Below, piece after piece: positions 2,241-5,719 of a stretch of DNA of 33,963 bases. The stretch's first letter is position 1, and every line of letters starts with the position of its first letter. Source of the stretch: Gammaproteobacteria bacterium (GTDB taxonomy: Bacteria > Pseudomonadota > Gammaproteobacteria > S012-40); assembly GCA_029883265.1 (NCBI GenBank), contig JAOUJM010000023.1, positions 1 through 33,963 on the forward strand. The letters run 5' to 3'. A program made the position numbers and the translations under genes. The notes under the pieces were generated by a model, which worked only from the letters and a program-made list of their open reading frames with translations, did no database searches and had not been told where the DNA came from.

Positions 2241-2921
2241 CTAGTTTAGTGCGGTTGAGTTTATCGCATCATCAGAGTCAAAAAAGTAAACCATGGAAAC
2301 CATTTCATGGTTTGTTGCTAAAGGCCAATTCGAACCAGCGGCATTTTCATCCCAACGACGTACCCGCCCTTGTTTACCGTCCAATTTTCCATCGATTACA
2401 ACGTCTATCCATTGCGCCATTTTTGCTGGCACTGTGTATACCACAATTACATTTTGCATTTGCTGATTGAATTCGACAGCTCCGACAATAAAATAATTAC
2501 CTGCGCCGTGTTTAGCCACCGTTTGGTTGGAATCACTTTTTGGCATATAGCCGTCAATACGCAAATCTGAGAAAACACTGTTTTCTGATTCGATTGTTGT
2601 TTGCATCAAGCGATTGGAGCAGGCATCTACGAATTTATCTTTTTCTTTATTTAATTTTTCTTCATTGGCGCGAGAAAGCTGAATTCCAGCTTGAGGTTGA
2701 ATTTCGATTATCCCATTTGCATTACAATCACCGGGCCAACGACCATGATCGAGCTTATAAGACCATACCTTGTTTTCAAGCTCAACAATTTCATTCTTAA
2801 AATTAGTATACTGCAGACGATCCACTAAATCTTTTCCCTGTACAACAAAGCCTAAAACGATTCCAGAACTAACTACTGCCAAAGCAAAAGTAATTAAGGT
2901 AAAACCTGTTTGATTTTTCAT
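2241..2921 (-). CDS. Orphan prepilin-like protein with type IV leader
   Basis: I place the start at the ATG ending at 2921, giving a short leader MKNQTG before the processing motif FTLIT. An upstream ATG at 2969 would give a 22-residue leader rich in Met. The roughly 19-residue hydrophobic stretch after the cleavage site (FALAVVSSGIVLGFVVQG) is the usual pilin stalk. The following YKLDHGRWPGDCNANG segment, with its PGD-type acidic loop, is seen in many prepilin-like proteins of unknown role. The conserved Glu at mature position 5 is replaced by Thr. That is typical of tip-type minor pilins such as GspK, although this protein is not otherwise GspK-like. No assembly genes are nearby, so it must borrow a pilus or type II secretion machine encoded elsewhere. 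No good Shine-Dalgarno sequence precedes any candidate start. Confidence 0.7.
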   Translation of the reverse strand: MKNQTGFTLITFALAVVSSGIVLGFVVQGKDLVDRLQYTNFKNEIVELENKVWSYKLDHGRWPGDCNANGIIEIQPQAGIQLSRANEEKLNKEKDKFVDACSNRLMQTTIESENSVFSDLRIDGYMPKSDSNQTVAKHGAGNYFIVGAVEFNQQMQNVIVVYTVPAKMAQWIDVVIDGKLDGKQGRVRRWDENAAGSNWPLATNHEMVSMVYFFDSDDAINSTALN

Positions 2922-2969
2922 TACTAATTTCATTATCCAACTCATGATGCTGCTCATTGTGTTCAACAT

Positions 2970-3534
2970 CGTCTAAGACTTGGGTGTGACAAGCTTTCAC
3001 AAACTATAATGTGAAATACATCACAAACAAATTTACTGTATTGTGAATAATGGTCTTTCAATGTATTAGCGTTAGAATAAGCGTCACTCTAAATTTCAAT
3101 TGATTGCACCAACCAAAACGTACCACATTCTGTCGCATTACTACGACAGCCAACTGATTTATAGATGCTTGATTTGCTTTACACCCTAGTCTAGAATCCC
3201 AGCACGAACTCAGCCTGAATTGGACTACATGCACGAGTTATCCAAACCACCTACTACTATTTCTTACAGAATAACTATACTCAATTGATTACAGATGAAT
3301 TTTTGTTTTAATCGGCTTACTCTGAGGCAAAAACTAAACTATAGAGGATGAAAAAACCTCAAGCAAAATTAAGCAACTACCGATCTCAAGAGATAATTTT
3401 TCAGATGGTCAGTAAATTGCCTTAGCGAAATGAATACTTTGTCCGCGCTGTCAGCTCAGGGATGCAATCGAGGACAATGTTTTTGATAGCATAGAATTTA
3501 TTAGTTATCCGCTCTATTCAAAAGGGAGAGAAGT
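2970..3534. other. 565-bp intergenic region
   Basis: No open frame with coding character was found on either strand. It holds the CRP-type palindrome near its left end and a small hairpin, CTGTCG-N8-CGACAG (3130-3149). A ribosome site (AAGGGAGAG, about 3523-3531) precedes the gene that starts at 3535. The rest is A+T-rich and unremarkable. Its length suggests a long 5' leader or a promoter near the right end. Confidence 0.5.
3010..3025. promoter_or_regulatory. CRP/Vfr-type palindrome
   Basis: TGTGAAATACATCACA matches the CRP half-sites TGTGA-N6-TCACA exactly. It lies about 90 bp upstream of the preferred prepilin-like start. A TATAGT hexamer on the minus strand (3003-3008) and a TATAAT on the plus strand (3005-3010) abut it, so either direction could be controlled. 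A second inverted repeat, TTTCAC-N10-GTGAAA (2995-3016), overlaps it. The match is seen in the sequence; regulation is inferred. Confidence 0.5.
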
Positions 3535-5025
3535 ATGTCTTCATCGAATCTATGGCTACTCTGGTCCAACAATGCCGGCGTATCAACTGGCATTTGGTTC
3601 ATCATCATTGTTACGCTCATGTATTTTGGACGCACACCCGCACACGAAATCTTACGTGGTTTAGCGCGCTTATTGCGCAATGGCTTTCGGTACACCTCAA
3701 GATCGATTAATTCATTATCAAAGCGTTTGCAGCAACGTAATAAAGAAGTCATTTTAACCGCAGGAAAAGAATCCACTGAGCGCTTAATTGAACGTGAATT
3801 CCATCGCGTCAATGCAGTGGTTGAACGTGACTTGAGCAGCTACCCAGCTTTACATCGACAAATTAGTGACTCAATCAATAGAATCGAAGAAGATTATCGT
3901 GGCTCCACCGAGACACCACCTTCACCACCCGCATGGTTAGATGCGGTGGAAACCATTGCCAAAATTCCACGCACTGGCGACCCCACCATTGGCCGCATTC
4001 TTGATGATATACACGATACAATTGAGCGTGCGCACAAAGACACTTTAAAGGAATATCGTAAAAGCAGTTTAGGACGTCACGATTTACTGAAAAAAATGTT
4101 GCCCGCGTGGCGCCGCTTAAGCCAAGATTTAAATGATGTTAAAAGCACAATAGAAGGTATTCAAGAACGTTCAAAAATTATTGATCATCAAATGGAAACC
4201 TACGAAGAAATTCGACAAGGCAACGATCGTGCTGCGCGCATGTTAACGTCATCTTCATTAACTCAATTCTTTATTTCTGGTTTGGTTTTGTTTATCGCCA
4301 TCATGGGCGGTATTATCAATTTTCAACTAATCGCGCTTCCCATGTCAGAAATGGTGGGCGGAACTGCCCAACTCGGCCCCCTAAGTACGGCTGATGTTGC
4401 TGCGCTGGTTATTATAATGGTCGAAGTCGCTATGGGTTTATTCCTCATGGAATCACTGCGTATCACCCGGCTTTTTCCCATTATTGGCACTATGGAAGAT
4501 CAAATGCGTCGTCGCATGATTCTTATCACATTTACCATTCTCGCAATTCTCGCATCGGTGGAAGCATCGCTTGCATACATGCGAGATTTGCTTGCAGCGG
4601 ATCGGGAAGCCTTAACGCAATCATTGGCAGGAATGGAAATTGTTCAAGCACAATTTCGTTGGATCCCATCGATTGGACAAATGGTTATGGGTTTTATTCT
4701 ACCGTTTGCGTTGGCTTTCGTTGCTATTCCGCTTGAGTCTTTTATTCATTCCTCGCGTACAGTGCTTGGTTTGACGGGAATTGCCGTGTTACGCCTACTT
4801 TCCTTCTTGGCACGCTTATGCGGCCACATTGCTTTCCAAGGTGGTAACTTACTCGTCAATTTTTATGACTTAGTCATATTTTTACCGTTGAAAATTGAAC
4901 ATCATTTACACCAACGACAACAATTGAATTTAATTAAAGCTGAAAAACCAGACATGAAAAAATTAGCTACTGATAAGAAAAAAACTGAGTCAGTCAAATC
5001 ATCTGATGGAGTACACACGCTATGA
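3535..5025 (+). CDS. Polytopic membrane protein with long cytosolic coiled coil
   Basis: I do not recognise a named family. The 496 residues comprise one N-terminal membrane helix (about 17-31), a long charged helical region (about 55-240) with heptad-like stretches, and four further membrane helices (about 241-263, 286-305, 328-347, 378-400). An amphipathic segment (410-453) and a Lys-rich soluble tail follow. The region between the first and second membrane helices is rich in Arg/Glu and probably cytosolic, inferred from positive-inside bias. The start has a good ribosome site, AAGGGAGAG. The stop overlaps the next start as ATGA, so the two products are almost certainly made together. The partner is a von Willebrand A lipoprotein, which suggests an envelope complex spanning inner membrane and periplasm. 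The function is unknown. Confidence 0.85.
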   Translation: MSSSNLWLLWSNNAGVSTGIWFIIIVTLMYFGRTPAHEILRGLARLLRNGFRYTSRSINSLSKRLQQRNKEVILTAGKESTERLIEREFHRVNAVVERDLSSYPALHRQISDSINRIEEDYRGSTETPPSPPAWLDAVETIAKIPRTGDPTIGRILDDIHDTIERAHKDTLKEYRKSSLGRHDLLKKMLPAWRRLSQDLNDVKSTIEGIQERSKIIDHQMETYEEIRQGNDRAARMLTSSSLTQFFISGLVLFIAIMGGIINFQLIALPMSEMVGGTAQLGPLSTADVAALVIIMVEVAMGLFLMESLRITRLFPIIGTMEDQMRRRMILITFTILAILASVEASLAYMRDLLAADREALTQSLAGMEIVQAQFRWIPSIGQMVMGFILPFALAFVAIPLESFIHSSRTVLGLTGIAVLRLLSFLARLCGHIAFQGGNLLVNFYDLVIFLPLKIEHHLHQRQQLNLIKAEKPDMKKLATDKKKTESVKSSDGVHTL

Positions 5026-5672
5026 AGAAATTGATTTTATTATTCATATTGATAACGATTTTCGGACTCAGTGCTTGTACTGAAACAGCGCCTAAAACAA
5101 GAGCGGTCTATATGCTGCTCGACACCTCCGGCACTTACACCGAAGAATTAAAAAAGGCGCAAACCATTATTAATTACCTCTTGGGTAATCTAGCCAATGG
5201 TGATTCACTGGCGGTGGCAAGAATTGATAGTGGCAGTTTTAGTGAGAAAGATATTCTCCACAAAGTGACCTTCGATAGTCGTCCAAGTCGTGCAAACGAA
5301 CAAAAACGTGCATTTAAACGAAAAGTCGATGAATTTGTCGCAAGTGTAAAAAGCGCCTCCCATACCGATATTTCCGGTGGCTTGTTACAAGCAACCGAAT
5401 TTCTGAATGAGACAGGTGCCAGCGAGAAATTTGTCTTAATATTTTCAGATATGGAAGAAGACTTAAAAAAAGGTCATGTACGTGATTTTTCAATACCACT
5501 GGTGGGCATCAAAGTCGTTGCGCTTAATGTTACTAAATTACGCATGGACATCGTCGATCCGCGCGAATATCTCAATCGCCTTGATATGTGGGAGAAAAAA
5601 GTTTTAGACGGTGGTGGTAAATGGACAGTGTTAAATGATCTTGAGCGTTTAGAAAACTTACTAAAAGTCTAA
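5022..5672 (+). CDS. von Willebrand factor A-domain lipoprotein
   Basis: The 216-residue protein begins with a lipoprotein signal ending in the lipobox LSAC, with Cys19 as the predicted lipidated residue. The mature protein is essentially a single VWA domain. A MIDAS metal site is readable: D34-T-S36-G-T38 on the first strand, T115 in SHTD, and D143 in FSDMEED. The DxSxT form of the first motif is acceptable for metal binding. VWA domains mostly mediate metal-dependent protein contacts, so its partner is probably the membrane protein with which it overlaps by 4 bp. Residue 20 after the Cys is Thr, not Asp, so outer-membrane retention is likely by the usual +2 rule. A long hairpin follows the stop codon. 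Biological role unknown. Confidence 0.87.
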   Translation: MKKLILLFILITIFGLSACTETAPKTRAVYMLLDTSGTYTEELKKAQTIINYLLGNLANGDSLAVARIDSGSFSEKDILHKVTFDSRPSRANEQKRAFKRKVDEFVASVKSASHTDISGGLLQATEFLNETGASEKFVLIFSDMEEDLKKGHVRDFSIPLVGIKVVALNVTKLRMDIVDPREYLNRLDMWEKKVLDGGGKWTVLNDLERLENLLKV

Positions 5673-5682
5673 AGCATTTTAA

Positions 5683-5719
5683 CGCTAGCGACAGTGATGG
5701 TCATCATTTGTCGCTAGCG
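5683..5719. repeat. Long near-perfect inverted repeat after the VWA operon
   Basis: An 11-bp perfect stem, CGCTAGCGACA (5683-5693) with TGTCGCTAGCG (5709-5719), encloses a second stem, TGATG (5695-5699) with CATCA (5702-5706). It starts 10 bp after the stop codon. It lacks a T-run on either side, so it is not a textbook intrinsic terminator. It may act as a Rho-dependent 3' end stabiliser or a protein site. Confidence 0.6.

Follow-up and report, generated by a model that had tools for sequence, protein, structure and literature searches.

A conserved five-helix membrane protein and VWA lipoprotein pair as a candidate MIDAS-dependent transducer of the bacterial envelope

The BatA/BatB VWA proteins of Bacteroides are anchored by a TM segment and tied to a MoxR AAA+ ATPase, and together with other MoxR-associated VWA proteins they are among the known systems closest to the locus described here. 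In eukaryotes, the CaV alpha2-delta and CLCA systems place an extracytoplasmic MIDAS VWA domain beside a membrane protein. The dedicated sortase system (TIGR03785/03787/03788) gathers a histidine kinase, a response regulator and a VWA target protein in one locus. Conserved envelope-linked operons around a VWA protein are also represented by the VWA/FtsZl1 operons (PMC2875224).

The present locus lies in a window of 33,963 nucleotides, the whole stretch of DNA that was analyzed, from a gammaproteobacterial assembly (GCA_029883265.1, contig JAOUJM010000023.1). It joins gene A, encoding a membrane protein with a long cytoplasmic arm, to gene B, encoding a VWA lipoprotein, through the ATGA overlap that an earlier note on this DNA had pointed out (Table 1). 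The 565 bp in front of A, taken in that note for an untranslated region, are instead the intergenic space between divergent genes at 2969 and 3535. A sigma-70 promoter scan before A did no better than on shuffled sequence, and a matrix scan placed no tandem TCAC box, of the kind described below, in this region. The divergent neighbor (2241-2969, minus strand) has a prepilin-type look (KNQTGFTLITFAL...) with no Pfam match, and it is not kept beside A in other loci. The long hairpin reported behind B is real, with a dG z-score of -4.45, and a search of the genome found a single copy, so it is not a genome repeat. Lacking a T-run, it does not qualify as a canonical intrinsic terminator; it is possibly an attenuator, an mRNA-stabilizing element or a protein-binding element. 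An Rfam search gave no match.

Table 1. Coordinates of features at the A-B locus (window positions, or residues where stated)
Feature	Position	Strand	Description
Intergenic region, 565 bp	2970..3534		Between divergent gene 2241-2969 (-) and gene A
Gene A	3535..5025	+	496-aa inner-membrane protein, predicted from ORF call, hydropathy, charge and AF2
TM spans of A	TM1 ~15-31, TM2 ~245-268, TM3 ~287-308, TM4 ~328-350, TM5 ~380-398 (residues)		Predicted; TM3 bears invariant E297, TM4 bears invariant E343
E297 codon of A	4423..4425	+	Intramembrane Glu lost along with B or the B MIDAS
ATGA overlap	5022..5025	+	Stop codon of A and start codon of B; the -4 overlap recurs in many relatives
Gene B	5022..5672	+	216-aa lipoprotein, lipid Cys C19, VWA domain with MIDAS
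Hairpin 3' of B	5683..5719	+	Perfect 11-bp arms and inner stem; no T-run

Family-averaged hydropathy places five strong TM segments in A, centered on residues 23, 254, 296, 337 and 389, with an extra weaker segment near 419. The charge asymmetry of the flanks predicts an N-terminus outside, an arm of ~200 residues (33-235) inside and a cytoplasmic tail, and this topology puts E297 in mid-membrane. In the AF2 model (81 sequences, pLDDT 85, pTM 0.64) shorter helices separate the two long helices of the arm (33-100 and 150-227), which probably pair as an antiparallel helical hairpin. The five-helix protein with a helical region of ~190 residues that had been read from the letters alone is thereby borne out. 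No Pfam, NCBIfam, PADLOC, PHROGs or PDB family matched A above threshold, a profile search of the PDB returned no credible relative, the PADLOC anti-phage defense models gave no match at E <= 1, and a profile comparison with the linked kinase described below indicated no relation. A below-cut-off match to DUF7341 was set aside as a chance match of the coiled-coil composition type, as were matches to NUDE_C and a transposase and, in the PDB profile search, to an angiotensin receptor. The top Foldseek matches were to Tweety/TTYH (E 0.016, TM-score 0.15, rmsd 41 A), and VIA matches stayed at Z <10 and were confined to common coiled coils.

The N-out orientation, the cytoplasmic domain between TM1 and TM2 and the acidic residue in TM3 recall ExbB/TolQ and MotA, and one could picture A as a divergent member of the MotA/TolQ/ExbB type, a proton motor or channel partnered in the periplasm by B. 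We regard this as very improbable: the 28 members scanned gave no match to Pfam MotA_ExbB, and hhalign assigned a probability of 0.2% against six MotA/TolQ/ExbB proteins of the same genome, which amounts to no sequence relation. A moreover has five TM segments rather than three or four, and the protein with which it is paired is a VWA lipoprotein instead of one of the TolR/ExbD/MotB type.

B carries the lipobox LSAC, with C19 invariant in the family, and a complete MIDAS composed of D34-T-S36-G-T38, T115-D116 and D143, in which the third position is Thr where the canonical residue is Ser. The AF2 model (pLDDT 85) has the VWA fold and superposes on inter-alpha-inhibitor HC1 and others with VIA Z of 16.2-16.3 and an rmsd of 2.4 A over 162-163 residues; the VWA domains of alpha2-delta and CLCA1 are among the structural matches. 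The VWA lipoprotein with an intact MIDAS that had been proposed for this position is what the lipobox and the fold show. Pfam VWA_2 matches 18 of 27 B members; the window copy lies under the cut-off and matched nothing above the Pfam, NCBIfam, PADLOC or PHROGs thresholds. Residues D34, S36, T115, D116 and D143 are present in nearly all B proteins, and the third position is usually Thr and in a few cases Asp or Glu. The DxSxD/E form occurs in B of L104, L115, L020, L221 and L217, and the A proteins of these loci are ordinary. At the +2 position of the lipobox, B mostly has Gly, Ser, Pro, Ala or Thr and has Asp in only 4 of 77 members; because Asp is so rare there, B is probably on the outer membrane according to the E. 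coli sorting rule, and an outer-membrane B would make A-B a trans-envelope device. It is from the predicted topology that we call the pair an envelope system.

Of 144 relative genomes searched at the protein level, 27 have A, at 30-67% identity, and in every one of the 27 but one the next gene downstream on that strand is B. In a species-level genome collection, a profile scan limited by the pattern used found at least 446 relatives, and the best 80 of the 446 were kept and read locus by locus. The record titles of these 80 name Gammaproteobacteria, Deltaproteobacteria/Desulfobacterota, Nitrospirota, Myxococcales and others. In 79 of them B is the gene after A, the contig of the 80th stopping after A, and this adjacency is far above chance. 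Culturable carriers of the pair include Hahella ganghwensis, Saccharospirillum impatiens and Simiduia aestuariiviva. The distance matrices of A and B correlate with r = 0.887 over 140 pairs (mirror-tree), against a maximum of 0.19 in 500 permutations, part of that correlation being due to the phylogeny shared by A and B. From such comparisons A and B almost certainly constitute one functional unit. The earlier note had expected a pair conserved and adjacent across genomes, and had named beforehand the two outcomes that would speak against it, a pair not conserved together and an A belonging to a characterized family with a known VWA partner; both were looked for, the pair is conserved, and the searches placed A in no such family.

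The pair was also found in family f164, small-genome relatives within the phylum of the window that are probably, at a guess, Zetaproteobacteria. Plasmid, phage and viral contig collections contained no homolog of A, and nothing accordingly points to a mobile or phage origin. In G147 both A and B are frameshifted (L197, 4473-6607), and in G155 A is split (L196); either the pair is decaying jointly, or these lesions are errors of assembly. There are divergent A-B subfamilies with 23-31% identity to the window and an intact MIDAS (L036, L202, L203 and L190-L195), which some genomes (G112, G692) have as an additional copy. Six loci of the Desulfobacterota type (L074, L081, L084, L088, L091 and L094) have a small DUF3568-type lipoprotein gene after B, followed by a divergent SH3-domain lipoprotein.

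The neighborhood of the pair bears on a further possibility. Many bacterial VWA proteins act in maturation or chaperone roles (PMC9976466), and the VWA domain of B could place A-B in a maturation or chaperone module akin to MoxR/VWA pairs that acts on an envelope complex. Against this, neighbor clusters and selected Pfam scans of 81 loci revealed no MoxR or other AAA+ gene among the recurrent neighbors, in keeping with the missing MoxR partner remarked on earlier, and no common client gene lies beside the pair. We give this reading very little credence.

A more specific connection between the two proteins appears at the level of single residues. The set compared, to which divergent A loci were added, comprises 139 A proteins with a recognizable B and MIDAS and eight A proteins without a normal B. 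E297, halfway along TM3, is kept in 139 of the 139, including ten at 23-31% identity to the window, and N262 (TM2) and E343 (TM4) are kept in all 16 of the most divergent paired A proteins, down to 23% identity. Among the A proteins without a normal B, six come from genomes in which no B was detected anywhere (G083, G259, G598, G657, G603 and G713); the second A copy of G680 has at the B position a degenerate lipoprotein without MIDAS; and B of G100 has a MIDAS broken by S36E, T38V, T115V and D116E. E297 is lost in seven of these eight, the residue at its position being Q in G083, G259 and the second copy of G680, T in G598, P in G657, V in G713 and A in G100, with E kept in G603. The one exception, where E297 is kept though B is absent, is locus L207. 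In the same eight proteins, E343 is kept in two (L189 and L204, the latter with a degenerate B remnant) and N262 in three, while R33 and P104 are kept in all eight and P399, E401, D445 and G301 in seven. By eye, a stretch at the G598 locus (L205) reads as a decayed B, and HMMER gives no confirmation.

TM3 aligns without internal gaps, so the loss of E297 is not an alignment slip. The association of E297 loss with loss of B or its MIDAS has a Fisher's exact P of 3e-11, uncorrected for phylogeny, and in the tree six of the eight proteins group together on long branches with a support of 0.98, so that they represent about two independent losses of E297 and varied substitutions within one relaxed clade. 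The pattern makes it quite probable that the MIDAS of B and E297 of A are functionally coupled.

It is at this point that a passive role has to be weighed. A-B might be a trans-envelope tether or scaffold, in which B, placed on the outer membrane or the wall, holds on to A, and the coiled-coil arm organizes cytoplasmic partners, the buried Glu/Asn cluster merely packing the helices or the B interface and no ion or signal passing. The long helical arm and the lipoprotein partner are what such a device would have, and the window pair is present constitutively without a regulator. Yet a mid-membrane Glu that never varies in 139 pairs, and whose loss goes selectively with that of the MIDAS, exceeds what packing is expected to need, and the dedicated inducible regulator described next suits a device that responds. 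We think a passive tether rather unlikely.

In 40 of the 81 loci, a response regulator and/or a histidine kinase is found among the neighbors of A-B, usually divergent from A and in other cases co-directional, upstream or downstream; examples of the family are L076 (3338-4129, minus strand) and L061 (960-2597, minus strand), with 38 other loci. The regulator carries the motif FWVEDQSHW, with an invariant WVEDQxHW at the start of the receiver, and has the domains Response_reg (above the Pfam cut-off) and Trans_reg_C (slightly below it); these domains and the 11-bp tandem direct repeat before A predict a regulator of the OmpR/PhoB type. The kinase carries the motif EVRHNGVISYDK and two TM segments separated by a loop of ~15-20 residues, predicted to be periplasmic. 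Pfam recognizes only HATPase_c in the kinase, which has an AgrC/CitA-like H-box, EVRHNGVI, and belongs to an unusual family. The regulator family occurs in 9 of the 144 genomes, all nine of which are within the 27 that have A; the probability of this by chance, C(27,9)/C(144,9), is ~8e-8 with kinship ignored, and five of the nine belong to the family of the window. Neither the kinase nor the regulator was found in the genome of the window, and the A-B module must therefore work without them. The two-gene envelope system originally proposed stands insofar as the pair is conserved, co-evolving and absent from the libraries searched; in about half of the loci it is rather a four-gene system with kinase, regulator and cis site.

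That cis site was recognized from k-mer counts upstream of A in the loci with a divergent regulator, where TTTTTCAC-type words are strongly enriched. They form a tandem direct repeat, TCAC-N7-TCAC, with an 11-bp period and one constant orientation, about 60-210 nt upstream of A. A matrix was trained on 17 sites, whose own scores are in-sample, and on the plus strand it scores >= 9 in 36 of the 40 regulator loci; three further regulator loci have a degenerate box in a corresponding position, and L098 lacks a box within 300 bp. Where no regulator is visible the scores are low, with five exceptions: the genomes of L065, L089 and L072 (G007, G009 and G057) carry the regulator elsewhere, L070 has a kinase fragment at the contig edge, and the contig of L104 is cut just upstream. 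A -10-like hexamer lies exactly 10 nt past the second TCAC half-site in 16 of the 21 cases with a recognizable hexamer, an offset that is the geometry of pho boxes. Genome-wide in G031 and G104, the best match lies before A, and the remaining matches come to about the level of a reversed-pattern control. The linked regulator would be an activator of A-B, and these scans gave no indication of a large regulon.

The linkage also suggests that A-B could be an accessory sensor that monitors the envelope and passes its signal to the linked kinase, with feedback on A-B expression. A kinase consisting of two TM segments and so short a loop would fit such a partner, the kinase is adjacent in about half of the loci, every regulator-bearing genome sampled also has A, and the strongest box matches in the two cleanest genomes sit before A. 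The other half of the pairs, the window included, have no such kinase, and sensing on its behalf cannot therefore be the core function. As an account of A-B as a whole we judge this unlikely.

Our favored explanation, to which we assign a probability of roughly 0.45 and which is accordingly tentative, is that A-B acts as an inner-membrane transducer dependent on the MIDAS of B, running from the periplasm to the cytoplasmic arm by way of a polar intramembrane site. B, facing the periplasm and probably on the outer membrane, would dock through its MIDAS metal onto the conserved periplasmic side of A. A VWA MIDAS usually binds an acidic residue of its ligand through the metal. Going by conservation, a guess at the docking site on A would be the PMSEMVGG loop (269-276) or R350-D356. 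Docking would control a buried polar site formed by N262 of TM2, E297 of TM3 and E343 of TM4, all predicted to lie at mid-depth or in the periplasmic half of the membrane. This site may be an ion- or proton-responsive switch that moves the long cytoplasmic helical hairpin, which would be the input or output arm; ion-coupled or gated action of A-B is a doubtful part of the model. The start of the arm and its interhelix Pro are kept even in A proteins that lack B, which makes a separate partner on the cytoplasmic side probable. In many lineages, a kinase with almost no periplasmic domain and a PhoB/OmpR-type regulator would turn the A-B operon on through the tandem TCAC repeat, 10 nt upstream of the -10.

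If this model is right, a widespread envelope machine, with at least 446 relatives in one species-level collection, has gone unnamed in the tested libraries, and bacteria put extracytoplasmic VWA domains to a second use besides that with MoxR ATPases. The single-residue handle of A E297 and B D34, together with a TCAC box reporter, would then offer a means of finding the signal or ion that is handled. We found no description of the A-B pair in the open-access literature. Among the known families and systems tested, none takes in A and none corresponds to A-B; the VWA fold and the parts of the two-component system are familiar.

The closest systems share parts of this arrangement. The MoxR-associated and BatA/BatB VWA proteins are represented among the structural matches of B (4jdu and 3ibs), from which B differs in being a lipoprotein with no recurrent AAA+ gene. 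The VWA/FtsZl1 operons (PMC2875224) contain genes of kinds that do not recur here, namely FtsZ-like, kinase or GTPase genes, and the architecture of A is unrelated. The dedicated sortase system came to attention through TIGR03787, the best NCBIfam match of the linked response regulator of one member, and was rejected: the scores are far below the cut-offs (52 versus 335.7 bits for the regulator, 33 versus 612 for the kinase and 12.9 versus 551.7 for B), the kinase architecture differs, no sortase was noted, and the VWA protein is no sortase target but a lipoprotein. The CaV alpha2-delta and CLCA systems are eukaryotic and far larger, and A is not a voltage-gated channel and has no homology to them, so the likeness is one of arrangement only. 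Within that limit, it is conceivable, and in our estimation rather doubtful, that a metal-dependent VWA lipoprotein gates the buried carboxylate site of A from the periplasmic side, so that A passes ions or a conformational signal on to its cytoplasmic arm of ~100 A; A-B would then be a bacterial counterpart, in arrangement, of the VWA-regulated ion channels, equipped with its own inducible two-component switch.
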